From: Kitasatospora sp. NBC_01287
Lineage (GTDB): Bacteria; Actinomycetota; Actinomycetes; Streptomycetales; Streptomycetaceae
DNA: 64,000 nucleotides
NCBI RefSeq assembly: GCF_026340565.1
Contig: NZ_JAPEPB010000001.1
Span: 5,556,501-5,620,500, forward strand
Reading direction: 5' to 3'
The notes under the pieces were generated by a model that did no database searches, had not been told where the DNA came from, and saw only the letters and a program-made list of their open reading frames with translations. Of the stretch, positions 3,784-15,437 are shown one piece after another. The position numbers and the translations under genes are program-made. The first letter of the stretch is position 1, and each line of letters opens with the position of its first letter.

Positions 3784-6408
3784 ATGAGTAGCCTCTTTGA
3801 CGACCTCCCGCTGCCCGGCTTCGAGCCCTTCGAGGCCAAGCCCGCCGCCGACGCGCCGCCCGTCGCCTTCGCCGAGGAGCCTCCGCCGGAGGACTACTAC
3901 GGCCACGAGGGCGGCATCCCGGACGACGAGATCCCGGGCGACCTCTTCGCCACCGACTACGCCGCGCAGGCCGAGCGCGACGCCCACTACCGCAACGGCG
4001 CGCACCGGCCGGTGATCGACCCGGTCCAGCTGCTGGAGGGCATGAACGACCCGCAGCGCGAGGCCGTGCTGCACGCCGGCTCGCCGCTGCTGATCGTGGC
4101 CGGCGCCGGCTCCGGCAAGACCCGGGTGCTGACCCACCGGATCGCCTACCTGCTCGGCGCCCGCGGCGTGCAGCCCGGCGAGATCCTGGCCATCACCTTC
4201 ACCAACAAGGCGGCCGGCGAGATGCGCGAGCGCGTCGAGCAGCTGGTCGGCCCGCGCGCGCGGGCCATGTGGGTCTCCACCTTCCACAGCGCCTGCGTGC
4301 GGATCCTGCGCCGGGAGAGCAAGCGGCTCGGCTTCACCTCCAGCTTCTCGATCTACGACTCGGCGGACTCGCAGCGCCTGATGGCCCTGGTCTGCCGGGA
4401 CCTGGACCTGGATCCCAAGCAGTTCCCGCCGAAGTCCTTCACCGCCAAGGTCTCCAACCTCAAGAACGAGCTGATCGACGAGGAGACCTACGCCGCGCAG
4501 GCCGCCAACCCGATGGAGCGCAAGCTCGCCGAGGCCTACGCGCTCTACCAGGCCCGGCTGCGCGAGGCCAACGCACTGGACTTCGACGACATCATCATGA
4601 CCACGGTCAACCTGCTGCAGGCCTTCCCGGACGCGGCCGAGCACTACCGGCGGCGGTTCCGCCACATCCTGGTGGACGAGTACCAGGACACCAACCACGC
4701 CCAGTACACGCTGGTGCGCGAGCTGACCGGCGGGGCCGCGGGCGCGGCGCCCAAGCGGACGGTGGACGGCGACCTGGTCAACCCGGCAGCCGCCGGCCTC
4801 GCCGACCTGCCGGCCGCCGAGCTCTGCGTGGTCGGTGACGCCGACCAGTCGATCTACGCCTTCCGCGGCGCCACCATCCGCAACATCCTCCAGTTCGAGG
4901 AGGACTACCCGAGCGCCACCACGATCCTGCTGGAGCAGAACTACCGCTCCACCCAGACCATCCTGAGCGCGGCGAACGCGGTGATCGAGCGCAACGCCAA
5001 CCGCCGCGAGAAGAAGCTCTGGACGGCCGGCGAGCATGGCGAGAAGGTGGTCGGCTACGTCGCCGACGACGAGCACGGCGAGGCGCAGTTCATCGCCGAG
5101 GAGATCGACCGGCTCACCGACGCGGGCGACGCCCGCCCCGGCGACGTGGCGATCTTCTACCGGACCAACGCGCAGTCCCGCGTCTTCGAGGAGGTGTTCA
5201 TCCGGGTCGGCCTGCCCTACAAGGTGGTCGGCGGGGTGCGCTTCTACGAGCGCAAGGAGGTCCGCGACGTGCTGGCCTACCTGCGGGTGCTCTCCAACCC
5301 CGAGGACACCGTGCCGCTGCGCCGGATCCTCAACGTGCCCAAGCGCGGCATCGGCGACCGCGCCGAGGCGATGATCGAGGCGCTGGCCGCCCGCGAGCGG
5401 ATCTCCTTCGCCCAGGCGTTGCTGCGCGTCGACGAGGCCTACGGGATGGCGGCGCGCTCGGCCAACGCGGTGCGCAAGTTCAACGAACTGCTGGCCGGGC
5501 TGCGGCAGGTCGTCGAGTCCGGGGCCGGCCCGGCCGCCGTGCTGGAGGCCGTGCTGGAGGAGACCGGCTACCTGGCCGAGCTGCAGTCCTCCACCGATCC
5601 GCAGGACGAGACCCGGGTGGAGAACCTCCAGGAGCTCGCCTCGGTCGCGCTGGAGTACGAGCAGGATCCGGGCGAGCGGCCGGACGGAGACGGCGAGGGC
5701 ACGCCGCCGGTCGGCTCGCTGGCCGACTTCCTGGAGCGGGTCGCGCTGGTCGCCGACTCGGATCAGATCCCGGATGCGAATCAGTCCGGGACAGAAGGAG
5801 GAAGTCCGGACGAGGAGGACGGCGGCGGCGTCATCACCATGATGACCCTGCACACCGCCAAGGGCCTGGAGTTCCCGGTGGTCTTCCTGACCGGCATGGA
5901 GGACGGGATCTTCCCGCACATGCGGGCGCTCGGCCAGGTCAAGGAGCTGGAGGAGGAGCGCCGCCTCGCCTACGTCGGCCTCACCCGGGCCCGGCAGCGG
6001 CTCTACCTGACCCGCAGCACGCTGCGCAGCGCGTGGGGGCAGCCCTCCTACAACCCGGCCTCCCGATTCCTGGAGGAGATCCCGGGCGAACTGGTCGAGT
6101 GGAAGCGGACCGGCGCCATCGCCGCGCCGCCCTCCCGCGGGTTGTCGACCAGCGGCTCGCGCGGTGGCGGTGGCGGCGGGCTCAGCTCGCAGGGGCCCAA
6201 GGCCGGCTGGGGCAAGTCGGCGCGGACGGTGGCCGAGCGCGAGGTGGTCGCGCTCGCGGTGGGCGACCGGGTCAGCCACGACAAGTTCGGCCTCGGCACC
6301 GTGGCCGGCACCGAGGGCGTGGGCGACCGGGCGAAGGCGACCATCGACTTCGGCACCGCGGGCCGCAAGCAGCTGCTGCTGCGATACGCGCCGGTGGAGA
6401 AGCTGTAG
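3784..6408 (+). CDS. pcrA: ATP-dependent DNA helicase PcrA/UvrD
   Basis: Superfamily 1 3'-5' DNA helicase for repair and clearing of replication obstacles, 874 residues. Walker A AGAGSGKT lies at 106-113. Walker B DEYQDTN starts near 298, followed by GDADQSIYAFRG, QNYRS, MTLHTAKGLE near 687 and VGLTRARQRLYL. The last ~50 residues carry the basic Tudor-like PcrA tail (GDRVSHDKFGLGTV) that in this family contacts RNA polymerase. The ATG at 3784 has GGAGGG ending 2 bp upstream; the poor spacing may mean a weak site. An acidic, Pro-rich N-terminal extension of ~85 residues precedes the helicase core, as is common in actinobacteria. It is a housekeeping gene with no sign of disruption. Confidence 0.97.
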   Translation: MSSLFDDLPLPGFEPFEAKPAADAPPVAFAEEPPPEDYYGHEGGIPDDEIPGDLFATDYAAQAERDAHYRNGAHRPVIDPVQLLEGMNDPQREAVLHAGSPLLIVAGAGSGKTRVLTHRIAYLLGARGVQPGEILAITFTNKAAGEMRERVEQLVGPRARAMWVSTFHSACVRILRRESKRLGFTSSFSIYDSADSQRLMALVCRDLDLDPKQFPPKSFTAKVSNLKNELIDEETYAAQAANPMERKLAEAYALYQARLREANALDFDDIIMTTVNLLQAFPDAAEHYRRRFRHILVDEYQDTNHAQYTLVRELTGGAAGAAPKRTVDGDLVNPAAAGLADLPAAELCVVGDADQSIYAFRGATIRNILQFEEDYPSATTILLEQNYRSTQTILSAANAVIERNANRREKKLWTAGEHGEKVVGYVADDEHGEAQFIAEEIDRLTDAGDARPGDVAIFYRTNAQSRVFEEVFIRVGLPYKVVGGVRFYERKEVRDVLAYLRVLSNPEDTVPLRRILNVPKRGIGDRAEAMIEALAARERISFAQALLRVDEAYGMAARSANAVRKFNELLAGLRQVVESGAGPAAVLEAVLEETGYLAELQSSTDPQDETRVENLQELASVALEYEQDPGERPDGDGEGTPPVGSLADFLERVALVADSDQIPDANQSGTEGGSPDEEDGGGVITMMTLHTAKGLEFPVVFLTGMEDGIFPHMRALGQVKELEEERRLAYVGLTRARQRLYLTRSTLRSAWGQPSYNPASRFLEEIPGELVEWKRTGAIAAPPSRGLSTSGSRGGGGGGLSSQGPKAGWGKSARTVAEREVVALAVGDRVSHDKFGLGTVAGTEGVGDRAKATIDFGTAGRKQLLLRYAPVEKL

Positions 6409-6936: not shown

Positions 6937-8586
6937 TCAGCAGGCCGTCTCGCCGAGGCCCTCGGGGGCGAGCTCGGCCAGCATCGCCGCGCGGAAGCGC
7001 AGGGTGCCGGCCAGCCGGCCGAAGGTCTCGGCCCAGGCGGTGTCCGGCGTGGCGTCGGCCGCCAGCGCCTCGACCGCCGGGGCGGTGGCGGGTGCCAGCG
7101 AGCGCTCCGTCAGCCCCAGGACACCGCTGTGGTTCCACGGGTAGGACCCGGCCGAGGCCGCCCGCTCCAGGGCGGCCACCACGGCGGTGCTGAGCGGCGG
7201 GGTCCATGGTGTGGCGCAGGCGCCGAGCAGTTGGAAGGCCTCGCCGGGGCCGTTGACCCGCAGGAAGGCGGCCGTCCAGGCGGCCCGCTCGGCCGGCGGC
7301 AGCACCGCCAGCAGCTTGGCCGGCGCCCCGGCGCGGCCGGCCGCCCCCGCCCGGCGCGGGGGCGGACCGAGCAGGACCCGGGCCCACGCGGCATCGCGCT
7401 GGCGCACGGCGGCCCGGGCCCAGGCCTCGTGCAGCTCCTCCCGCCAGGGGCCGGGCGCCGCGGGCGCCTCGGTGGCGCCGGTGAGGTCAGCGGCGTCAGT
7501 GCTGTCGGCAGTGCTGTCGGCAGTGCCGGCGGCGTCGACGGCATCGAGCACCGGCAGCGCGAGCAGTTGGGCGGGGGTCAGCCCGAAGGCCGCGGTCCAG
7601 GTGGCCAGTGGGGTGGCGGCCAGCACCTCGCCCAGCCACCAGGCCCGCTCGTCGCGCCCGGTGGGCGAGACGAGCGGTATCCCGTCCCGCCGCATCCCCG
7701 GATCGCAGGCGGCGGGTGGCGTCACCAGCAGCGCGCCGGTGGTGCCGAGGCGGACCGCGGCCAGTGCCCGCCCGGCCATCCGCCGGCCGAGCGCCGAGCC
7801 GGGCAGGGCGGAGAGCAGTTCGGCGGCGGTGGCCCTGACGTTCCTGCCCCGGTCGCCGAGGGCGGCCTCCAGGAACGGTTCGTCGGCCGGGCCGAGCCCC
7901 TCCTGAAGGGCGTCCAGGAAGAGCAGGCGGTCCTCGGCCCGTTCGCTCGGCCAGCTGCCGGCCAGCAGTGCCAGGGCGGCGGCCGGGTCACGTCGGCGCA
8001 GCCGGGTCAGGTGGGTGACCCGCTCGGCGAAGAGCCCCTCCTGCCAGATGAGGCCCTCATCGGTCGGCGCGTCGGCGTTCACCGTGCGCAGCAGGTAGCG
8101 CCACTCCGGGTTCCGCTCGGCCAGCCACCGCCCGAGCGGGCCGACCAGGGCCGCCACCTCCCCGCGCAGCTCGCCGCGGGCCCGAGCGGCCTCCAGCAGG
8201 GCCGGGACCTGCGCGGCGGGCGGGCGGTAGCCGTGCCGGTGGGCGGCCGCCAGCCACTGCGGGAGCAGCTCGGTGAGGTTCGCCGCCGCGCCGCCGCCGC
8301 GTCCGGCCAGCAGCACGGTGAGTCGCCGCGCGGCGGCCGCGGGCAGCTCGGGGCGGTGATCGGCCGGCGGCGGTTCCTCGGGCGGTACGGCGGGCAGCGG
8401 CAGCAGCCCGGCCCGGTGCGTGGCGGTGGCCAGCGCGGCCAGCTCCAGCAGCGCCACCGCCGGATCGGCGCGGTCGACGGCGGTGGCCGCCGCCACCGCG
8501 GCGGGTGAGCCGCTCGGCGGGGGCAGCGCGCGCCGGTCGGTGCCGAGCAGGGCGGTGGTGGTCAGCTCGGACCAGTAGTCGTTCAT
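6937..8586 (-). CDS. DUF5691 family protein
   Basis: Uncharacterised 549-residue protein of the DUF5691 type, recognised from its N-terminus (WSELTTTALLGTDRR) and an Ala/Leu-rich, all-helical body with HEAT-like helix pairs (FLEAALGDRGRNVRATAAELL near the middle). No catalytic motif, signal peptide or membrane span is evident, so it should be a cytoplasmic scaffold or adaptor. The ATG at 8586 overlaps the stop of the SWIM-like gene by 4 bp (ATGA), so the two form a coupled minus-strand operon. The opposite arm holds MoxR, DUF5682 and VWA genes; these families recur together in actinobacteria, which suggests one machine. A small direct repeat (GTGCTGTCGGCA twice, near 7500-7523) lies in a low-complexity linker. 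Confidence 0.8.
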   Translation of the reverse strand: MNDYWSELTTTALLGTDRRALPPPSGSPAAVAAATAVDRADPAVALLELAALATATHRAGLLPLPAVPPEEPPPADHRPELPAAAARRLTVLLAGRGGGAAANLTELLPQWLAAAHRHGYRPPAAQVPALLEAARARGELRGEVAALVGPLGRWLAERNPEWRYLLRTVNADAPTDEGLIWQEGLFAERVTHLTRLRRRDPAAALALLAGSWPSERAEDRLLFLDALQEGLGPADEPFLEAALGDRGRNVRATAAELLSALPGSALGRRMAGRALAAVRLGTTGALLVTPPAACDPGMRRDGIPLVSPTGRDERAWWLGEVLAATPLATWTAAFGLTPAQLLALPVLDAVDAAGTADSTADSTDAADLTGATEAPAAPGPWREELHEAWARAAVRQRDAAWARVLLGPPPRRAGAAGRAGAPAKLLAVLPPAERAAWTAAFLRVNGPGEAFQLLGACATPWTPPLSTAVVAALERAASAGSYPWNHSGVLGLTERSLAPATAPAVEALAADATPDTAWAETFGRLAGTLRFRAAMLAELAPEGLGETAC

Positions 8587-9605
8587 CGGGCCGCTCCTGT
8601 ACCGGTCAGCGTGATGGCCCGGCCGGTTTCGTCCCAGACCGCGACCGGGGCGAACCCGCGGTGCCCGCACTCGCCGAAGACCGCCACCGGTCGGCCCCGG
8701 GCGACGGCGGCCAGCCGCCAGAGCGCGCCGCCGGCGGCACCGTGCACCGGCAGCGCGCCCTGATCGTCCGTCAGCAGCCAGCCACCGGGCCCGCGCACCA
8801 GGGCCACCGCGGCCAGTAGGACGGGCCAGGACTCCGTCCACGGGTCGTCGGCGACCGCCTCGCCGTAGGCGGCCGCCGCCGCCGCGACGCTCAGCCCGGC
8901 CGCCGGGGCCGGGGCCGGGGCCGGCGGGCCGTGGTGGGGGGCGAGCGCGGCGCGCAGCGGGCGGACGCCGGGGTGGAAGGCCAACTCGGCCTCCAGCCGG
9001 TGGCCCAGGGGCAGCGCGAGCTCGATCGCCCGGCCGGGGCGGCCGTAGGCGAGCAGCAGGGCGTCGCGCCCGCTCCCGGCGCCGCGCAGCCAGACCCGGC
9101 GGGTGGTCAGTGGCTCCTCGGCGCTGTCCCGGCAGCCGAGCACCAGCCAACTGTCCCGCACGGTCGGGCCGGCCAGCAGCTCGGCGCTGTCGATGCTGAA
9201 GCCGACCCTGGCCCGCACGGTGGCGGCCAGCGGCGCCGGCAGCTCGCCGACCCGCAGGTAGGCGGCCGCGAGCAGGTCGAGCAGGCCGCAGGCGGCAAGC
9301 TGCTCCTCGGCCGGCAGGGTGGCCAACTCCCTGACCCGCGCGGCGAGTCCTGGCGCCTGGGCGTCCACCATCCGGGCCGCCAGCTGTGCCCGGTCGGCCG
9401 CCGCGCCGGCCTGCTCGGCCAGCCCGGCGCGCACCCGGTCGGCCAGCCGCAGCCGCAGCTCCGTGGCCCCCTGCGCGACCCGCGCCGCCCGCCGCTCGGC
9501 CCGCCGGCGCGCGGCCGCCGGATCGGCCGGGCCGCCCGCCGCCGCGGTCGGGGCGGCGTGCGGCGCGAGGGAGGGGGCGTGCTCGGTGCTCCAGCGTTCG
9601 GCCAT
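8583..9605 (-). CDS. SWIM zinc-finger family protein lacking the SWIM motif
   Basis: A 340-residue protein whose beginning (ERWSTEHAPSLAPHAA) and body (basic helix RRRAERRAARVAQGATEL, then RVRELATLPAEEQL and a C-terminal beta-rich part) match the proteins that normally carry a SWIM zinc finger. The finger itself, CxC...CxH, is absent: the few cysteines are scattered as ACGLL, LGCRD and GECGH. The sequence jumps from residue ~25 straight to the basic helix, as if roughly 90-110 residues were deleted in frame. It heads the two-gene minus-strand operon with DUF5691. Possible explanations are a degenerate but still structural subunit, or a start of decay; the open frame and good codon use favour the first. 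Confidence 0.7.
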   Translation of the reverse strand: MAERWSTEHAPSLAPHAAPTAAAGGPADPAAARRRAERRAARVAQGATELRLRLADRVRAGLAEQAGAAADRAQLAARMVDAQAPGLAARVRELATLPAEEQLAACGLLDLLAAAYLRVGELPAPLAATVRARVGFSIDSAELLAGPTVRDSWLVLGCRDSAEEPLTTRRVWLRGAGSGRDALLLAYGRPGRAIELALPLGHRLEAELAFHPGVRPLRAALAPHHGPPAPAPAPAAGLSVAAAAAAYGEAVADDPWTESWPVLLAAVALVRGPGGWLLTDDQGALPVHGAAGGALWRLAAVARGRPVAVFGECGHRGFAPVAVWDETGRAITLTGTGAAR

Positions 9606-9645
9606 GCCCCGAACGTAGAGCGGCGCACTGACAGACCCTCAGGAG

Positions 9646-10206
9646 TCACCTCCTGGGCGGGTAGACCTTGAACGTCTCGGTGCCGACCGCGAAGGAGAAG
9701 GGCTCGGGGAGCTCGACGTCCTCGCCGAACCTGCCGTGCGCGACCACCCGGTAGCCACCGTCGCGGGGGTCGGAGTGCAGCTCCCAGATTCCCTCGTTCG
9801 GGTCAACGATGAGGTAGAGCGGGATGCCGCTCAGGGCGTACCAGGCGCGCTTCTTCGCGTAGTCGCTGTCCCGGTCGGTGGAGACGATCTCGACCGTTAT
9901 GGCCACCCGGTGGGCGGGGAAGGGGTTGGCGTTGTCGGCGGCCTCATCGTGACTGGTGACCACGACGTCGGGCTTGGGTTCGAAGGCTCGCTCCGGGGAG
10001 ACCAGGGCCTGCTCGACCATCGACCACCAGCCCTGCTGGAAGAACTGTGACGTGATGGCGGTCTGGATGAAGTTGTGGAACGGCGCGGCGGACGGGAGCA
10101 TCACGATCTTTCCGTCGATGAGCTCGATCCGGTAGGCGTCGAGCTCAGGGAGCTGTTCGAGCAGGCGCACCAGGTCGTGTGCGGTCTCGGGCACGGTCGC
10201 GGTCAT
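9646..10206 (-). CDS. Uma2 family (PD-(D/E)XK nuclease-fold) protein
   Basis: 186-residue Uma2/DUF820 protein. The nuclease-fold motifs are visible: an early conserved Glu (YRIELIDG), PKPDVVV, VEIVS, DYAKKRAWY with the lysine, and the closing YLIVDPNEGIWEL. Members are predicted endonucleases, often in several copies in actinobacteria; no target is known. The ATG at 10206 is chosen because an unusually strong AGGAGGAGG site sits just upstream (10215-10224); a GTG at 10215 would overlap that site. It lies between the two divergent arms of the MoxR/DUF5691 module and ends about 40 bp before the SWIM-like gene start, in the same direction. It may be an independent insertion rather than a part of the module. 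Confidence 0.85.
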   Translation of the reverse strand: MTATVPETAHDLVRLLEQLPELDAYRIELIDGKIVMLPSAAPFHNFIQTAITSQFFQQGWWSMVEQALVSPERAFEPKPDVVVTSHDEAADNANPFPAHRVAITVEIVSTDRDSDYAKKRAWYALSGIPLYLIVDPNEGIWELHSDPRDGGYRVVAHGRFGEDVELPEPFSFAVGTETFKVYPPRR

Positions 10207-10406
10207 CGTCAGCACCTCCTCCTTCCCATGCTAGCCACCGTGGCCGTCCGGTCGCCGCCGAGTTGTCAGTGGCGGGGTGCAGAGTGGTCTGTGCGGGCCG
10301 GACGGGCAGAGCTTCCGGGCCTGCCGACCGTGCCGGTTCTTCCCGATCACCCCAGCCTCCCGGGCATCGCTGTGCCCACCGACGGCCGATCAGCAGGGAG
10401 CCCCCG

Positions 10407-11573
10407 ATGACCACCGCACCCACTGCGTCCACCGCACCCACTGCGTCCACCGCACCCACTGCACCCGTCGTGCCCACCGCGCCCGCCGCGCCCGCCGCCG
10501 AGGTGCTGCGGGCGCACGCCGAGGACGCCTTCGCCGAGGAGCTGGCGGCGCTGGCCCGGTGCGACGACCGGCCGCGGCCGGCCCGGTGGCGGCTGTCGCC
10601 GTGGGCGGTTGCGACCTACCTGCTCGGCGGCGAACTGCCGGACGGCACGGTGGTCACGCCCAAGTACGTGGGGCCGCGGCGGATCGTCGAGGTGGCGGTC
10701 AGCACGCTGGCCACCGACCGGGCGCTGCTGCTGCTCGGGGTGCCGGGTACGGCCAAGACCTGGGTGTCGGAGCACCTGGCGGCGGCGGTCAGCGGCGACT
10801 CCACGCTGCTGGTGCAGGGCACCGCGGGCACGGCGGAGGAGGCCGTGCGGTACGGCTGGAACTACGCCGAACTGCTCGCCAACGGGCCGAGCCTGGCGGC
10901 CCTGGTGCCCTCGCCGGTGCTGCGGGCGATGGCCGACGGCAAGATCGTCCGGGTCGAGGAGCTGACCCGGATCCCGGCCGACGTGCAGGACGCCCTGATC
11001 ACCGTGCTCTCGGAAAAGACGTTGCCGGTACCGGAGTTGGGCTGGGAAAATCAAGCTGTCCGCGGGTTCAACCTGATCGCCACCGCCAACGATCGCGACC
11101 GCGGGGTCAACGAACTCTCCAGTGCGCTGCGCCGCCGTTTCAACACGGTCGTCCTGCCGCTGCCGGCGACCCTCGACGAGGAGGTCGAGATCGTCGCGCG
11201 TCGGGTCGCCCAACTGGGCCGCGCGCTGGAACTGCCCGAGCCGCCGAGCGGCACGCAGGAGATCCGACGAGTGGTCACGATCTTCCGCGAGCTGCGCGAC
11301 GGCGTCACCGCTGACGGTCGGACCAAGGTCAAGAGCCCGACCGGCACGCTCTCCACCGCCGAGGCGATCTCGGTCCTCACCCATGGTCTCGCGCTCGCCG
11401 CGCACTTCGGCGACGGTGTGCTGCGCGCGGGGGACCTGGCGGGCGGGGTGCTCGGGGCGGTGGTCCGCGATCCCGTGGCCGACCAGGCGGTGTGGTGCGA
11501 GTACGTGGAGGGCGTGCTGCGCGGGCGGGACGGGTGGAAGGACTTCTACCGGGCTGCCCGGGAGCTCTCCTGA
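10407..11573 (+). CDS. MoxR-type AAA+ ATPase
   Basis: 388-residue AAA+ ATPase of the MoxR group. Walker A GVPGTAKT is at 111-118. The Walker B region is IVRVEELTRIPADVQ near 181, with VEE in place of the usual DE. Sensor 1 is IATANDRDRG, with the arginine finger in SALRRRFN. MoxR ATPases work with VWA-domain partners as chaperone-like machines for complex maturation or metal insertion; a VWA gene lies two genes downstream. The ATG at 10407 follows AGGGAG at 10395-10400. The N-terminus is a low-complexity TAPTAS stretch made by an 18-bp tandem repeat. It is the first gene of the plus-strand arm. Confidence 0.9.
   Translation: MTTAPTASTAPTASTAPTAPVVPTAPAAPAAEVLRAHAEDAFAEELAALARCDDRPRPARWRLSPWAVATYLLGGELPDGTVVTPKYVGPRRIVEVAVSTLATDRALLLLGVPGTAKTWVSEHLAAAVSGDSTLLVQGTAGTAEEAVRYGWNYAELLANGPSLAALVPSPVLRAMADGKIVRVEELTRIPADVQDALITVLSEKTLPVPELGWENQAVRGFNLIATANDRDRGVNELSSALRRRFNTVVLPLPATLDEEVEIVARRVAQLGRALELPEPPSGTQEIRRVVTIFRELRDGVTADGRTKVKSPTGTLSTAEAISVLTHGLALAAHFGDGVLRAGDLAGGVLGAVVRDPVADQAVWCEYVEGVLRGRDGWKDFYRAARELS
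10413..10466 (+). repeat. 18-bp in-frame tandem repeat at MoxR N-terminus
   Basis: Three consecutive 18-bp units (10413-10430, 10431-10448, 10449-10466) begin ACCGCACCCACTGC; the first two are identical and the third differs near its end. They encode TAPTAS units at the start of the MoxR protein, so copy number can vary without frameshift. Confidence 0.9.
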
Positions 11574-11664: not shown

Positions 11665-14136
11665 ATGACTGGTGAGGTGGCCCTGTTGGGCGTACGACAC
11701 CACGGACCGGGCTCGGCGCGCGCGGTGGGGGCCGCACTGGCCCAGCTGCGACCGGACGCGGTGCTGATCGAGGGCCCGCCGGAGGCGGACCCGATCATCG
11801 GCCTGGCGGCGGACCAGGAGATGGTGCCGCCCGTCGCCCTGCTCGCGCACGTGGTGGACGACCCGGCCCGGGCGGCCTTCTGGCCGTTCGCCGCGTTCTC
11901 ACCCGAGTGGGTGGCGATCCGGCACGGGCTGGCGGCCGGCGTGCCGGTGCGGTTCATCGACCTGCCGGCCGGCACGGCCTTCGCGCTGTCGGCGGCGGCG
12001 GAGGCCGGCGGTCAGGAGGGCGGTCAGGAGGAGGGCCCGGCGCTCGACCCGATCGCCCGGCTCGCCGCGGCCGCCGGTCAGGCGGACCCGGAGGCCTGGT
12101 GGGAGGACGTGGTCGAGCACCGGCTGCCCGGTGACGACCCGCTCGCGCCGTTCGCGGCCGTGGCCGAGGCGATGGCCGTGCTGCGCGACGATCCGGTGGG
12201 CACCCCGGGCTCGCCGAGCGCGGCACCGGTGGGACCGGCGGGCGCCGGGGAGGCCACGGCCTCCCCGGCGCCCGCCGCCGGGCGGCGCGAGGAGCTGCGC
12301 GAGGCGTACATGCGCCAGCAGATCCGCGCCGCCCGGCGGGCCGGCCACCGCCGGATCGCCGTGGTCTGCGGTGCCTGGCACGTACCGGCGCTCGCCGCCC
12401 GCACGGCGGCGGGCGCCGACCGCGCGCTGCTCACCGGACTGCCGCGCAGAGCGCGGACCGAGATCACCTGGGTGCCCTGGACCCACCGCCGGCTCGCCCA
12501 GCGGACCGGCTACGGGGCCGGTATCGAGTCGCCCGGCTGGTACCAGCACCTGTTCGAGCGTCCGGCCGGCGCCGCCCCGGGGGAGGGCGGCACCGGCCTG
12601 GCCCGGTTCCTGACCCGGGCCGCCGAGCTGCTGCGCGGCGCGGACCGCCCGGTCTCCGCCGCGCACGTCATCGAGGCGGTCCGGCTCGCCGAGACGCTGG
12701 CCGCCGTGCGCGGGCGGCCGGCCCCCGGGCTGGCCGAGGCGCTGGACGCGGTGCGTTCGGTGTACTGCGAGGGCTCGGAGGTCGCGCTCGCGCTGGTCCG
12801 CGAGCGCCTGGTGATCGGTGACGCGCTGGGCCGGGTGCCGGCCGCCGCCCCGGCCGTGCCGCTGCAGCGCGACCTGACCCGGCTGCAGCGCACCCTGCGG
12901 CTGCGCCCCGAGGCGCCGCCCACCGGCGCCGCCGGCCAGGAGCTGACGCTGGACCTGCGCGGCGAGCTGGACGCGGGCCGCTCGGTGCTGCTGCACCGGC
13001 TGCGCCTGCTCGGCATCGACTGGGGCACCGAGGCCGGCACCCCCGGCGGCGCCACCGGCACCTTCAAGGAGCGCTGGCGGCTGCGCTGGGACCCGGAGTT
13101 CGCCGTCCGGGTGGTGGCGGCGGCGCCGTGGGGCACCACCGTCGAGCGGGCCGCCGCGGCCAAGGCGGCGGCCTCGGCCGCCCGGGCCGGCGAACTCGCC
13201 GAGCTCACCGGGCTGGCCGAAACCTGCCTGGTCGCCCGGCTGCCGGGCGCGCTGCCCGCGGTGCTGCGCGCGCTGGCCGACCGGGCCACGCTGCACACCG
13301 ACGCCGCCGAGCTCGCCGACGCGCTGCCCGCCCTGGTCCGCGCGCTGCGTTACGGGGATGTCCGCGGCACCGACAGCGGCGCGCTGGCGGAGGTCGCGCA
13401 CGGCCTGGCCGGCCGGCTCTGCGTCGCCCTGCCGACCGCCTGCGCCGGGCTGGACGCCGAGCGCGCCACCGCGATGCGGTCCCGACTGGAGGCGGTGCAC
13501 GGCGCGATCGGCCTGCTCCGTCGAGCGGAGCGGGAGCCGGGCGGCCCGCCCGGGGCCGGCCTCGCCGACCGCTGGGCCGCCGCCCTGCACGAGCTGGCCA
13601 GGCGCGGGCCGACCGGCGGCGCGGCCACCGGGGTGCCCGGACTGCTGCGCGGCCGGGCGGTGCGGCTGCTGCTGGACGAGGGCTGGATCGAGGCGGCCGA
13701 GGCCGGGCGCCGACTGGGCCTGGTGCTCTCCAGGGCGGCCGCGCCCGCCGACGCGGCCGGCTGGATCGAGGGCTTCCTCGCGGGCGGCGGCGCCCTGCTG
13801 CTGCACGACCCGCGACTGCTCGCGCTGCTCGACAGCTGGCTGACCGAGGTGCCGGAGCAGACCTTCATCGACCTGCTGCCGCTGCTGCGGCGCACCTTCG
13901 CGGCGCTGGAGGCGGGGGTGCGCCGCGGCGTGGGCGCCAAGGTGGCGGCCGGTCGGCCGGTGCTGATGGGTCGGCCCGCCGACGCCGCCGACGCCGCCGA
14001 GGAGCTGGACCAGGAGCGCGCCGACGCCGCGCTGCCCACCGTGCTGCGGCTGCTCGGCCGGGCCGGCCCGCCGCCACCGCTCGCGCCCACGATCGGCCAA
14101 ATCCTCCGTCAGTCGACGCACCGGAGCGCCGCATGA
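11665..14136 (+). CDS. DUF5682 family protein
   Basis: Large 823-residue cytoplasmic protein of the DUF5682 family. The N-terminus LLGVRHHGPGSA (residues 8-19), then VLIEGPPE and CGAWHVPAL near 235, give the His/Glu pattern of the EreA/ChaN/TraB-like hydrolase fold, so an enzymatic N-terminal domain is plausible though unproven. The rest is Ala/Leu/Arg-rich and helical. The ATG at 11665 lies only 2-3 bp after GGGGGAGG; a GTG at 11677 has better spacing (about 14 bp is too long, however), so the start is uncertain by four codons. The stop overlaps the VWA gene by 4 bp. Its fixed place between MoxR and VWA genes suggests it is the effector or client-specific subunit of the complex. Confidence 0.85.
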   Translation: MTGEVALLGVRHHGPGSARAVGAALAQLRPDAVLIEGPPEADPIIGLAADQEMVPPVALLAHVVDDPARAAFWPFAAFSPEWVAIRHGLAAGVPVRFIDLPAGTAFALSAAAEAGGQEGGQEEGPALDPIARLAAAAGQADPEAWWEDVVEHRLPGDDPLAPFAAVAEAMAVLRDDPVGTPGSPSAAPVGPAGAGEATASPAPAAGRREELREAYMRQQIRAARRAGHRRIAVVCGAWHVPALAARTAAGADRALLTGLPRRARTEITWVPWTHRRLAQRTGYGAGIESPGWYQHLFERPAGAAPGEGGTGLARFLTRAAELLRGADRPVSAAHVIEAVRLAETLAAVRGRPAPGLAEALDAVRSVYCEGSEVALALVRERLVIGDALGRVPAAAPAVPLQRDLTRLQRTLRLRPEAPPTGAAGQELTLDLRGELDAGRSVLLHRLRLLGIDWGTEAGTPGGATGTFKERWRLRWDPEFAVRVVAAAPWGTTVERAAAAKAAASAARAGELAELTGLAETCLVARLPGALPAVLRALADRATLHTDAAELADALPALVRALRYGDVRGTDSGALAEVAHGLAGRLCVALPTACAGLDAERATAMRSRLEAVHGAIGLLRRAEREPGGPPGAGLADRWAAALHELARRGPTGGAATGVPGLLRGRAVRLLLDEGWIEAAEAGRRLGLVLSRAAAPADAAGWIEGFLAGGGALLLHDPRLLALLDSWLTEVPEQTFIDLLPLLRRTFAALEAGVRRGVGAKVAAGRPVLMGRPADAADAAEELDQERADAALPTVLRLLGRAGPPPPLAPTIGQILRQSTHRSAA

Positions 14137-15437
14137 CGAGCAGTGACCTCACCGGCCCCGACCGCACGCCGCCCGGCTCCGCCGCCGTCGCCCCTGACCT
14201 TGACGCCCCCGCCGCCCCCGCCGCTCCAGACGCCCCCGACCAGGAGCGGCTGCGCCGCTGGCGCCTGGTGCTGGGCGGCGAGGCGGGGGAGTCCCCCCTG
14301 ACGGGGTCCGCGGCAGGCGCCGGCCACCGGCTGACCGGCCGGGACGCGGGCATCGACCGCGCGCTGGCCGCCCTCTACCGCAGCGAGCCGGCGCCCGCCG
14401 ACGCCGCCCGCGGCCGGAGCCGCGCCGCGGGCCTGGGTGCCGGCGCCCCGCAGGTGGCCCGCTGGCTGGGCGACATCCGGGGCTACTTCCCGACCCCGGT
14501 GGTCCAGCTGCTGCAGCAGGACGCGATCACCCGGCTCGGCCTGGCCCGGCTGCTGCTCGAACCGGAGATGCTGGCCGCCGTCGAGCCGGACGTGCACCTG
14601 GTGGGCACCCTGCTCGCGCTGGGGGACGCGCTGCCCGAGACCACCCGCGCCACGGCCCGCCTGGTGGTCGGCAAGGTGGTGGCGGACCTGGAGCGCCGGT
14701 TGGCGACGCGGACCAGGGCCACCCTGACCGGGGCGCTGGACCGCGGCGCCCGGGCCGGCCGGCCGCGCCACCGCGACATCGACTGGGACCGCACGGTGCG
14801 GGCCAACCTGAGGAACTACCTGCCCGGCACCGGCCCGGCCGGGCGCGGCACGGTGGTCCCCGAGCGCCTGGTCGGCCACGCCCGGGCCCGCCGCGCGGTG
14901 GCGCGCGAGGTGGTCCTCTGCGTCGACCAGTCCGGCTCGATGGCGTCCTCGGTGGTGCACGCGGCCGTCCTCGGCGCGGCGCTCGCCTCGATCCGCACCC
15001 TGGCCACCCGACTGGTGCTCTTCGACACCTCCGTCGTCGACCTGACGGGGCAACTGGCCGACCCGGTGGACGTGCTGTTCGCCGCCCGGCTGGGCGGCGG
15101 CACCGACATCGATCGCGCGCTGGCCTACTGCCAGTCGCGGATCACCCGTCCGGCCGACACCGTGGTCGTCCTGATCAGTGATCTCCACGAGGGCGGGATC
15201 CGGGGCGGGATGCTGCGCCGGGTGGCCGCGCTGACGGCGGCCGGGGTGCGCTTCGTCGCGCTGCTCGCGCTCAGCGACGACGGCGCTCCCGACCACGACC
15301 ACGCGCACGCCGCGGCGCTGGCCGCGCTCGGCTGCCCGGCCTTCGCCTGCACCCCGGACGCCTTCCCCGAGGTGATGGCGGCTGCCCTGGCGAACCGCCC
15401 GCTGCCGCTGCCGGAAGGCGGCTGGACCACGGGGTGA
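14133..15437 (+). CDS. VWA (CoxE-like) domain protein
   Basis: 434-residue protein with a C-terminal von Willebrand A domain. The metal-ion-dependent adhesion site is intact: D265-Q-S-G-S269, the later threonine and the Asp of GGGTDIDRAL. The N-terminal ~130 residues are acidic and Pro/Ala-rich, followed by a helical segment (PTPVVQLLQQDAITRLGL). CoxE-type VWA proteins bind MoxR ATPases and recruit substrates. The ATG overlaps the DUF5682 stop by 4 bp, so the two are coupled. No signal peptide or membrane anchor is seen, so it acts in the cytoplasm, unlike the batA/yfbK-type membrane VWA proteins. Confidence 0.9.
   Translation: MTSSDLTGPDRTPPGSAAVAPDLDAPAAPAAPDAPDQERLRRWRLVLGGEAGESPLTGSAAGAGHRLTGRDAGIDRALAALYRSEPAPADAARGRSRAAGLGAGAPQVARWLGDIRGYFPTPVVQLLQQDAITRLGLARLLLEPEMLAAVEPDVHLVGTLLALGDALPETTRATARLVVGKVVADLERRLATRTRATLTGALDRGARAGRPRHRDIDWDRTVRANLRNYLPGTGPAGRGTVVPERLVGHARARRAVAREVVLCVDQSGSMASSVVHAAVLGAALASIRTLATRLVLFDTSVVDLTGQLADPVDVLFAARLGGGTDIDRALAYCQSRITRPADTVVVLISDLHEGGIRGGMLRRVAALTAAGVRFVALLALSDDGAPDHDHAHAAALAALGCPAFACTPDAFPEVMAAALANRPLPLPEGGWTTG

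Follow-up and report, generated by a model that had tools for sequence, protein, structure and literature searches.

MoxR-vWA ternary systems, in which a MoxR protein and a vWA protein occur with extra conserved partners, have been described in multicellular actinobacteria (Kaur et al. 2020, excerpts of PMC7159879). The RecA-NDp promoter type is used by PafBC in mycobacteria (excerpts of PMC8223512 and PMC6789036), and to the same type belongs the recA promoter of Streptomyces rimosus, which is UV-inducible and is quoted in an excerpt of PMC2375139 as TTGTCAGTGGCN6TAGggT. In S. coelicolor, SCO4804 (815 amino acids, aa) raises topA transcription, and sco4803-4805 rise upon TopA depletion; its DNA binding is non-specific only, and the authors infer an indirect action (available part of PMC8120823). 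Here we analyzed a window, meaning the whole 64,000-nucleotide (nt) stretch of Kitasatospora sp. NBC_01287 (contig NZ_JAPEPB010000001.1, positions 5,556,501 to 5,620,500), which holds a divergent gene module with a MoxR-vWA pair. The active-site motifs of the pair are intact, as in the systems of Kaur et al. 2020. Our subject is a 340-aa protein of this module, an ortholog of its SWIM zinc-finger protein that has lost the finger.

The most similar named copy of the protein is that of Kitasatospora sp. GAS204B (locus L070). It has 427 aa, carries the finger CSCPSRKSPCKH and matches the SWIM family PF04434 at 25.0 bits (cut-off 19.6). The two genes share their neighbourhood, start codon and promoter element, and their bodies are 74% identical. 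Relative to L070, 91 codons (273 nt) are deleted in frame between residues 24 and 25 of our protein, including the entire CxC...CxH site. The exact breakpoint could lie anywhere within about 10 nt of GC-rich sequence. Searches with the 340-aa protein gave no Pfam family at E up to 1, and none from NCBIfam or PADLOC at the thresholds used. Since only three Cys are left (residues 106, 158 and 313), no CxC...CxH site is possible, and with these three scattered, other zinc ligands within the body were ruled out. Neither a loose nor a strict CxC...CxH motif is found in the three forward frames of the 800 nt before the body. As it stands the protein is not a SWIM (PF04434) protein, though its orthologs are. 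It belongs to their group by its body, which has the RMVDAQAPGL and LAATVR motifs, and by its place between the divergent promoter and the DUF5691 gene.

The gene is open, and its stop codon TGA and the DUF5691 start codon ATG overlap in the sequence ATGA (8586-8583). GC content by codon position is 0.85/0.64/0.94, like real coding sequence, and the ratio of nonsynonymous to synonymous substitution (dN/dS) of the body is 0.55 to L070 and 0.54 to the finger-less genome G088. The initial annotation had called this a SWIM-family protein without its CxC...CxH motif, with 90-110 residues deleted in frame and an open, normally coding gene coupled to DUF5691. All of this was borne out, and there is no obvious zinc site from other residues that might have overturned the loss.

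To place the loss, 249 Streptomycetaceae genomes, one per species, were searched with a full-length finger-bearing query and then with the finger only. The full-length query matches 240 of them, although in G113 and G241 the match is limited to a finger fragment at the end of a contig. Within the genus, 68/70 genomes match, and 58 rows span residue 1 to residue 422 or beyond. The finger-only query fails in 23 genomes (G252, G261 and G265 were assigned by elimination). Nine of the 23 also have no full-length match, leaving 14; our own genome (G000; 4 contigs, 100% completeness) gives merely a weak finger match (E 0.002) and was added to them, so that 15/240 are finger-less. The DNA was read in each: G000, G008, G088, G093, G154, G164, G218, G230, G245, G249, G250, G252, G265, G096 and G104. 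The body is present in all 15, and the frame is open from the start codon in 14. Loss peculiar to Kitasatospora sp. NBC_01287 is ruled out by these other genomes.

Among the 80 named loci listed, those without a finger are Streptomyces tateyamensis (G008), Streptacidiphilus sp. ASG 303 (G104) and S. griseocarneus strain 132. One of the named strains, at L122, is a finger-less case in addition to the 15. Two other named loci have different causes, a frame shift with the finger in another frame (L112) and a contig end (L129). In G190, finger and body seemed to sit in the two parts of a split gene; this case was dismissed because both pieces stop at contig ends. Altered fingers occur in other genomes, for example CACAAAEPPCGH, CGCASSQPPCPH and CGCPSRQLPCEH; the search pattern for these required all four ligands, so that the ligands survive there by construction. 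In G061 (L036, 4308-4504, minus strand) the finger CGCPGRQRPCQH is present and out of frame with the start MDERWSSEQ, and the break lies in a G-rich stretch, real or a sequencing error.

A 112-row tree that leaves out the SWIM gene requires no fewer than 12 switches of finger state, and a second, 77-row tree that includes the body has the same minimum. The first tree has three sister pairs of a finger-less and a finger-bearing member (G088/GAS204B, L060/L109 and L053/L114), each with support 100. Residual N-termini differ among the losses, which fall in several genera. One shared loss in the genus is not favoured, given the pairing of G088 with GAS204B and these differing N-termini. The initial annotation had asked whether close homologues of the same length never had the finger. 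Such finger-less homologues do exist (G088, G008 and G093), but on the tree they are interspersed with finger-bearing relatives, which refutes the "never had". The finger has been shed about a dozen times in the family while the body, start, promoter element and DUF5691 stay. It seems to be detachable and not essential.

What remains after the loss is predicted to fold. The AlphaFold2 model of the 340-aa protein has a mean predicted local distance difference test score (pLDDT) of 91.0 and a predicted template modelling score (pTM) of 0.83, with helices at residues 29-144 and strands at 149-332, so the structure prediction proposed as a check came out in favour of intact domains. The full-length finger-bearing relative, modelled from a smaller alignment, gave pLDDT 81.7 and pTM 0.60. 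Structural comparison with VIA-align covers residues 140-327 in two registers (146-232 and 235-328), and the HIN-200 and RPA70 rows span both. The rows for the body are mostly proteins that we take to be oligonucleotide/oligosaccharide-binding (OB) folds. Invariant body columns are common to finger-less and finger-bearing rows of the alignment, and body dN/dS is 0.26-0.60 over 14 pairs that include a finger-less member.

The body is also tied to its partner. DUF5691 is found in 242/249 genomes. Of the 9 genomes in which the SWIM protein is unmatched, 7 also lack DUF5691, and these are the only ones to do so; the other two, G103 and G128, have it. Because the absences overlap, the body and DUF5691 appear to travel largely together, with the finger as the loose part.

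Evolutionary rates were measured as protein change versus third-position change on terminal branches at 77 loci (15 finger-less, 10 altered and 52 intact). This set adds 40 further genomes picked among the matches listed, which is no strict random draw, and 5 with altered fingers were not counted as intact. In the unpaired comparison, the median for MoxR is 0.65 in finger-less and 0.24 in intact loci (p 1e-6), for vWA 1.59 and 0.76 (p 6e-7), and for the body 0.87 and 0.55 (p 0.0004). DUF5691 shows little difference (0.79 and 0.75, p 0.22), nor is SucC faster (0.26 and 0.40, p 0.98, with just 11 and 47 rows). In the paired test, each of 12 finger-less clades was compared with its nearest intact rows. 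vWA is faster in 11/12 clades (median 2.0-fold, p 0.0005), MoxR in 10/12 (1.4-fold, p 0.005) and the body, weakly, in 9/12 (1.3-fold, p 0.026). DUF5682, DUF5691 and SucC show no speed-up, with 5/12 clades each. An earlier, smaller test, in which the intact rows were largely query-similar ones, agreed (MoxR p 5e-6, vWA p 3e-6, SucC p 0.24). By these comparisons vWA and MoxR change faster in finger-less lineages, as does the body to a weak degree.

Our own clade is a special case. All seven of its loci (L033, L034, L035, L036, L037, L070 and L087) have high ratios for both MoxR and vWA. GAS204B at L070 has its finger intact and is already fast (MoxR 1.46, vWA 1.92). Because this finger-bearing strain is equally fast, the speed-up in this clade cannot be put down to finger loss; it preceded the loss or runs beside it.

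Two divergent elements resembling the RecA-NDp promoter lie in the module, between the starts of the SWIM and MoxR genes. On the SWIM side, TGTCAGT, a 9-nt gap and TA are found in 76/77 loci, and on the MoxR side TGTCAGT, a 9-nt gap and [TC]A are likewise found in 76/77. TGTCAGT occurs 166 times in the 2.35 million positions of the 77 loci, and is present on the SWIM side in 76 loci and on the MoxR side in 77. The column consensus is tTGTCAGTgg.g.g.ccTAccgT on the SWIM side and TTGTCAGTGgcgtGGTGCA.gGT on the MoxR side. Both elements are kept in 13/15 finger-less loci; one of the two is unmatched in L034 and in L164. Our 9.49-Mb genome has 8 copies of the SWIM-side pattern and 0 of its reversed control. 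At 6 of the 8 sites a start codon follows 6-9 nt downstream, the finger-less gene being one of these. The conserved back-to-back elements suggest that the whole module is part of the DNA-damage response. A literature search found no expression data for the module under DNA damage. The module may already be among the 67 S. coelicolor genes tabulated by PMC2375139.

Other genes that stand 6-9 nt after the SWIM-side pattern encode, by Pfam, a DEAD-box helicase that looks DinG-like (L209), an SprT/YgjP-like metallopeptidase (L210), a glyoxalase/bleomycin-resistance protein (L208), an AraC-type regulator (L213) and a pPIWI_RE-associated nuclease (L214, on contig C2).

The genes for MoxR, DUF5682 and vWA_CoxE diverge from the SWIM/DUF5691 arm (Table 1), and the next open reading frame (ORF), which we read as SucC, matches across relatives. 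A UvrD/PcrA-type helicase was recognized by eye close to the module (window 3784-6408, plus strand).

Table 1. Features of the module and of the finger-less gene, in window positions. MIDAS, metal ion-dependent adhesion site.
Feature	Position	Strand	Basis or remark
Finger-less ortholog of the module's SWIM-finger protein, 340 aa	8583..9605	-	ATG start, open ORF
Residual N-terminus, residues 1-24, MAERWSTEHAPSLAPHAAPTAAAG	9534..9605	-	aligned with residues 1-24 of finger-bearing orthologs
Deletion junction	9533..9534	-	91 codons with the SWIM finger gone relative to GAS204B (L070)
Helical part of body, residues 29-144, holds RMVDAQAPGL	9174..9521	-	AlphaFold2 model, conservation
First OB-like barrel, residues ~146-232	8910..9170	-	AlphaFold2; PriB, SSB and RecO rows, Z about 6-7, middling
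Second OB-like barrel, residues ~235-328	8622..8903	-	AlphaFold2; rows of middling Z that include RPA, RMI1 and yeast replisome chain 8xgc_9 (Z 7.8)
DUF5691 protein, overlapping downstream partner	6937..8586	-	PF18944, 530 bits
RecA-NDp-like element, CTGTCAGTGCGCCGCTCTACGTT	9612..9634	-	6 nt before the finger-less ATG
Uma2 nuclease-like gene between the two promoter elements, outside the conserved module	9646..10215	-	PF05685
Divergent RecA-NDp-like element, TTGTCAGTGGCGGGGTGCAGAGT, faces MoxR gene	10263..10285	+	2/17 consensus positions differ
MoxR-type AAA ATPase	10407..11573	+	PF07728; listed ORF opens at 10179, start inferred as first in-frame Met after the promoter element
DUF5682 protein, 823 aa	11665..14136	+	PF18934, 860 bits
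vWA_CoxE protein, MIDAS DxSxS intact	14136..15437	+	PF05762

With modest confidence, we favour the explanation that the finger serves a MoxR-vWA machine of the DNA-damage type as a contact domain that can be detached, that our gene is a working ortholog which lost its N-terminal SWIM finger by the 91-codon in-frame deletion, and that the finger is shed where constraint has relaxed. The SWIM/OB protein would act as adaptor in a MoxR-vWA machine for remodelling, which a DNA-damage promoter of the RecA-NDp (PafBC) type would turn on. The helical part of this adaptor, together with its two OB-like barrels, may keep the complex assembled and probably contacts nucleic acid, and the finger would be an extra contact that matters when MoxR-vWA is at full demand; candidates for what it touches are the clients of MoxR/vWA or DNA. 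As demand on MoxR-vWA falls, the finger would drift from its CxCPSRKFPCKH consensus and then be removed by an in-frame deletion. This order, with the speed-up before the loss, is proposed because GAS204B has fast MoxR and vWA with its finger intact. The finger-less protein would keep serving its remaining role with DUF5691. The initial annotation's suggestion that the finger is dispensable holds in that the body is kept finger-less in 15/240 genomes, folds in the model and is constrained. "Dispensable" is too mild, as MoxR and vWA are faster in finger-less lineages.

A wider version of the favoured explanation is possible, and we put it forward tentatively, judging it unlikely as a whole. Here the module would be an undescribed DNA-damage-switched machine of Streptomycetaceae, with the SWIM/OB adaptor and DUF5691 set against MoxR, DUF5682 and vWA across two back-to-back RecA-NDp-like promoters. 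The finger would be its evolvable coupling part. Shedding it would unhook MoxR-vWA from DNA or a client, while the OB adaptor with DUF5691 would keep a second, finger-independent job.

Several points weigh against the favoured explanation. The OB resemblance is middling by the tool's own scale (Z 5.9-7.8 among the 50 rows of matches listed), and Foldseek of the body gave no match at E <= 0.001. Our own SWIM-side element is off consensus at 5/17 positions, compared with 2/17 on the MoxR side, and the M. smegmatis PafBC motif is reported as not conserved in S. venezuelae (excerpt of PMC9380542). The finger-less copy of G104 (L158, 11140-11352) has a frame break between its start (MSVTSDDGRR...) and the body, and may be broken or misread. 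For the rates, only terminal branches were used and third positions stand in for dS. DUF5682 is also faster unpaired (median 1.00 in finger-less and 0.69 in intact loci, p 0.0006), so that the claim of a restriction to MoxR and vWA depends on the paired test. In that test L070 serves as the sister for four of the 12 clades, and two others use one and the same set of 16 sister rows, which makes the clades less than fully independent. The four that share L070 show no clear finger effect, with MoxR ratios of 0.73-1.40 and vWA ratios of 0.91-1.19. A binary independent-pairs sign test on the 77-row tree gave a median p of 0.125 for MoxR and 0.125 for vWA, as well as 0.25 for the body and 0.375 for DUF5682.

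The same rates could be read as decay, with the whole module on its way out and the finger loss as the first visible damage. The faster MoxR and vWA of finger-less lineages would fit, as would the frame breaks in G061 and G104, the joint absence of the SWIM protein and DUF5691 from 7/249 genomes, and the gapped or scrap Uma2 genes of GAS204B, G088 and G061. Yet the MoxR Walker A/B and vWA MIDAS motifs are intact in 15/15 finger-less rows. The open frames in 14/15 genomes, the lack of acceleration of DUF5691 and DUF5682 in the paired test and the two promoter elements retained in 13/15 loci are also not what decay would leave. We consider decay of the module unlikely, though worth keeping in mind.

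Alternatively, the loss could be a functional switch. Without the finger, MoxR-vWA would take other clients, and MoxR and vWA would be speeding up as they adapt. The paired speed-up is indeed seen just in MoxR, vWA and, weakly, in the body, which are the parts expected to face clients, and the body and DUF5691 are retained. In our own clade, however, GAS204B is equally fast with its finger, so that there the change came before finger loss or without it. A switch of this kind is rather improbable in our view.

The initial annotation had further proposed that nucleic-acid binding moved to the neighbouring Uma2 protein. In our clade an Uma2 gene occupies the space between the promoter elements. 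Uma2 is matched in just 2 of the 20 loci compared, those of G000 and G093, where an intact copy stands beside a finger-less gene. Finger-less G088 has, by eye, only a C-terminal scrap of Uma2, finger-less G008 has no Uma2 match, and finger-bearing GAS204B has Uma2 with an internal gap (L070:6219-6625). By eye, Uma2 also reads as a shortened remnant in G061 (L036). A takeover of the finger's role by Uma2 was rejected because Uma2 and finger state do not covary; from its distribution Uma2 is best described as a passenger. Another SWIM protein as the replacement is not supported either. Our genome has two further paralogous SWIM proteins (L001 and L002), which are of a different kind, with the finger at the C-terminus; relatives of the L002 type occur in 47/70 genus genomes and are missing from finger-less G008, G088 and G093. 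A handover of binding to another gene is therefore very improbable and largely contradicted. Nucleic-acid contact, if any remains, is more likely seated in the two modelled OB-like barrels of the same protein.

An artefact, with assembly collapse or a wrong start codon concealing the finger, is scarcely credible: GC-rich DNA is error-prone in assembly and each species is represented by a single assembly, but not even a loose CxC...CxH motif is found in any forward frame of the 800 nt before the body in 15/15 rows, our genome is complete in 4 contigs, and losses with differing residual N-termini recur across several genera.

Zinc fingers are usually taken as the working end of a protein. Here, natural deletion of the finger has happened about a dozen times and the remainder was kept. 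MoxR and vWA evolve at a different pace where it is lost, a hint as to which partners the finger works with. The promoter elements would link the module to the DNA-damage response; the module is uncharacterised, and its SWIM protein and DUF5691 are matched in 240/249 and 242/249 genomes. Its role can be tested in S. coelicolor, where the likely DUF5682 counterpart has already been linked to topoisomerase expression (excerpt of PMC8120823). From its length (815 vs 823 aa) and gene order, SCO4804 should be the DUF5682 member of the module. The RNA-seq panel in the available part of that paper spans sco4803-sco4808, and the same part does not treat the SWIM gene ("swim" has 0 occurrences).

The literature search did not find DUF5691 or DUF5682; SWIM surfaced in passing only, and "SWIM zinc finger" is absent among the literature matches listed. 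In PADLOC, the body, DUF5691, DUF5682 and vWA have 0 matches at E <= 0.01, MoxR has a weak match (15.6 bits) and Uma2 matches the candidate PDC-S03. By Pfam, no VMAP, iSTAND, FtsH or beta-propeller third component was found among the module partners, and the bpMoxR model scores 21.0 bits, under its cut-off of 27. "Zinc finger" has 0 occurrences in the available part of PMC7159879.

Of the known relatives, the finger-bearing orthologs of GAS204B and of Streptomyces griseocarneus JCM 4580 (L099) have the same body and neighbourhood, and differ from our gene by the finger that is absent here (91 codons relative to L070). Compared with the CoxD-CoxE and RavA-ViaA pairs, the module's vWA protein is of the CoxE class (PF05762) with a weak ViaA match, and its MoxR protein meets the MadB and GvpN models only far under cut-off. 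In the module, sucC follows and no Cox genes were seen. Like the RecA-NDp/PafBC promoters (excerpts of PMC5087735, PMC8223512, PMC6789036 and PMC2375139), the module elements have the TTGTCAGTGG core and the same spacing to a -10-like box. They differ from the RecA-NDp consensus TTGTCAGTGGC-N6-TAGggT in the MoxR-side box, which is CA.gGT and not TAGggT. As far as the available part of Kaur et al. 2020 goes, the module resembles the MoxR-vWA ternary systems of multicellular actinobacteria in joining MoxR and vWA with extra conserved partners; its own partners are DUF5682, plus the SWIM/OB protein and DUF5691 on a divergent arm.

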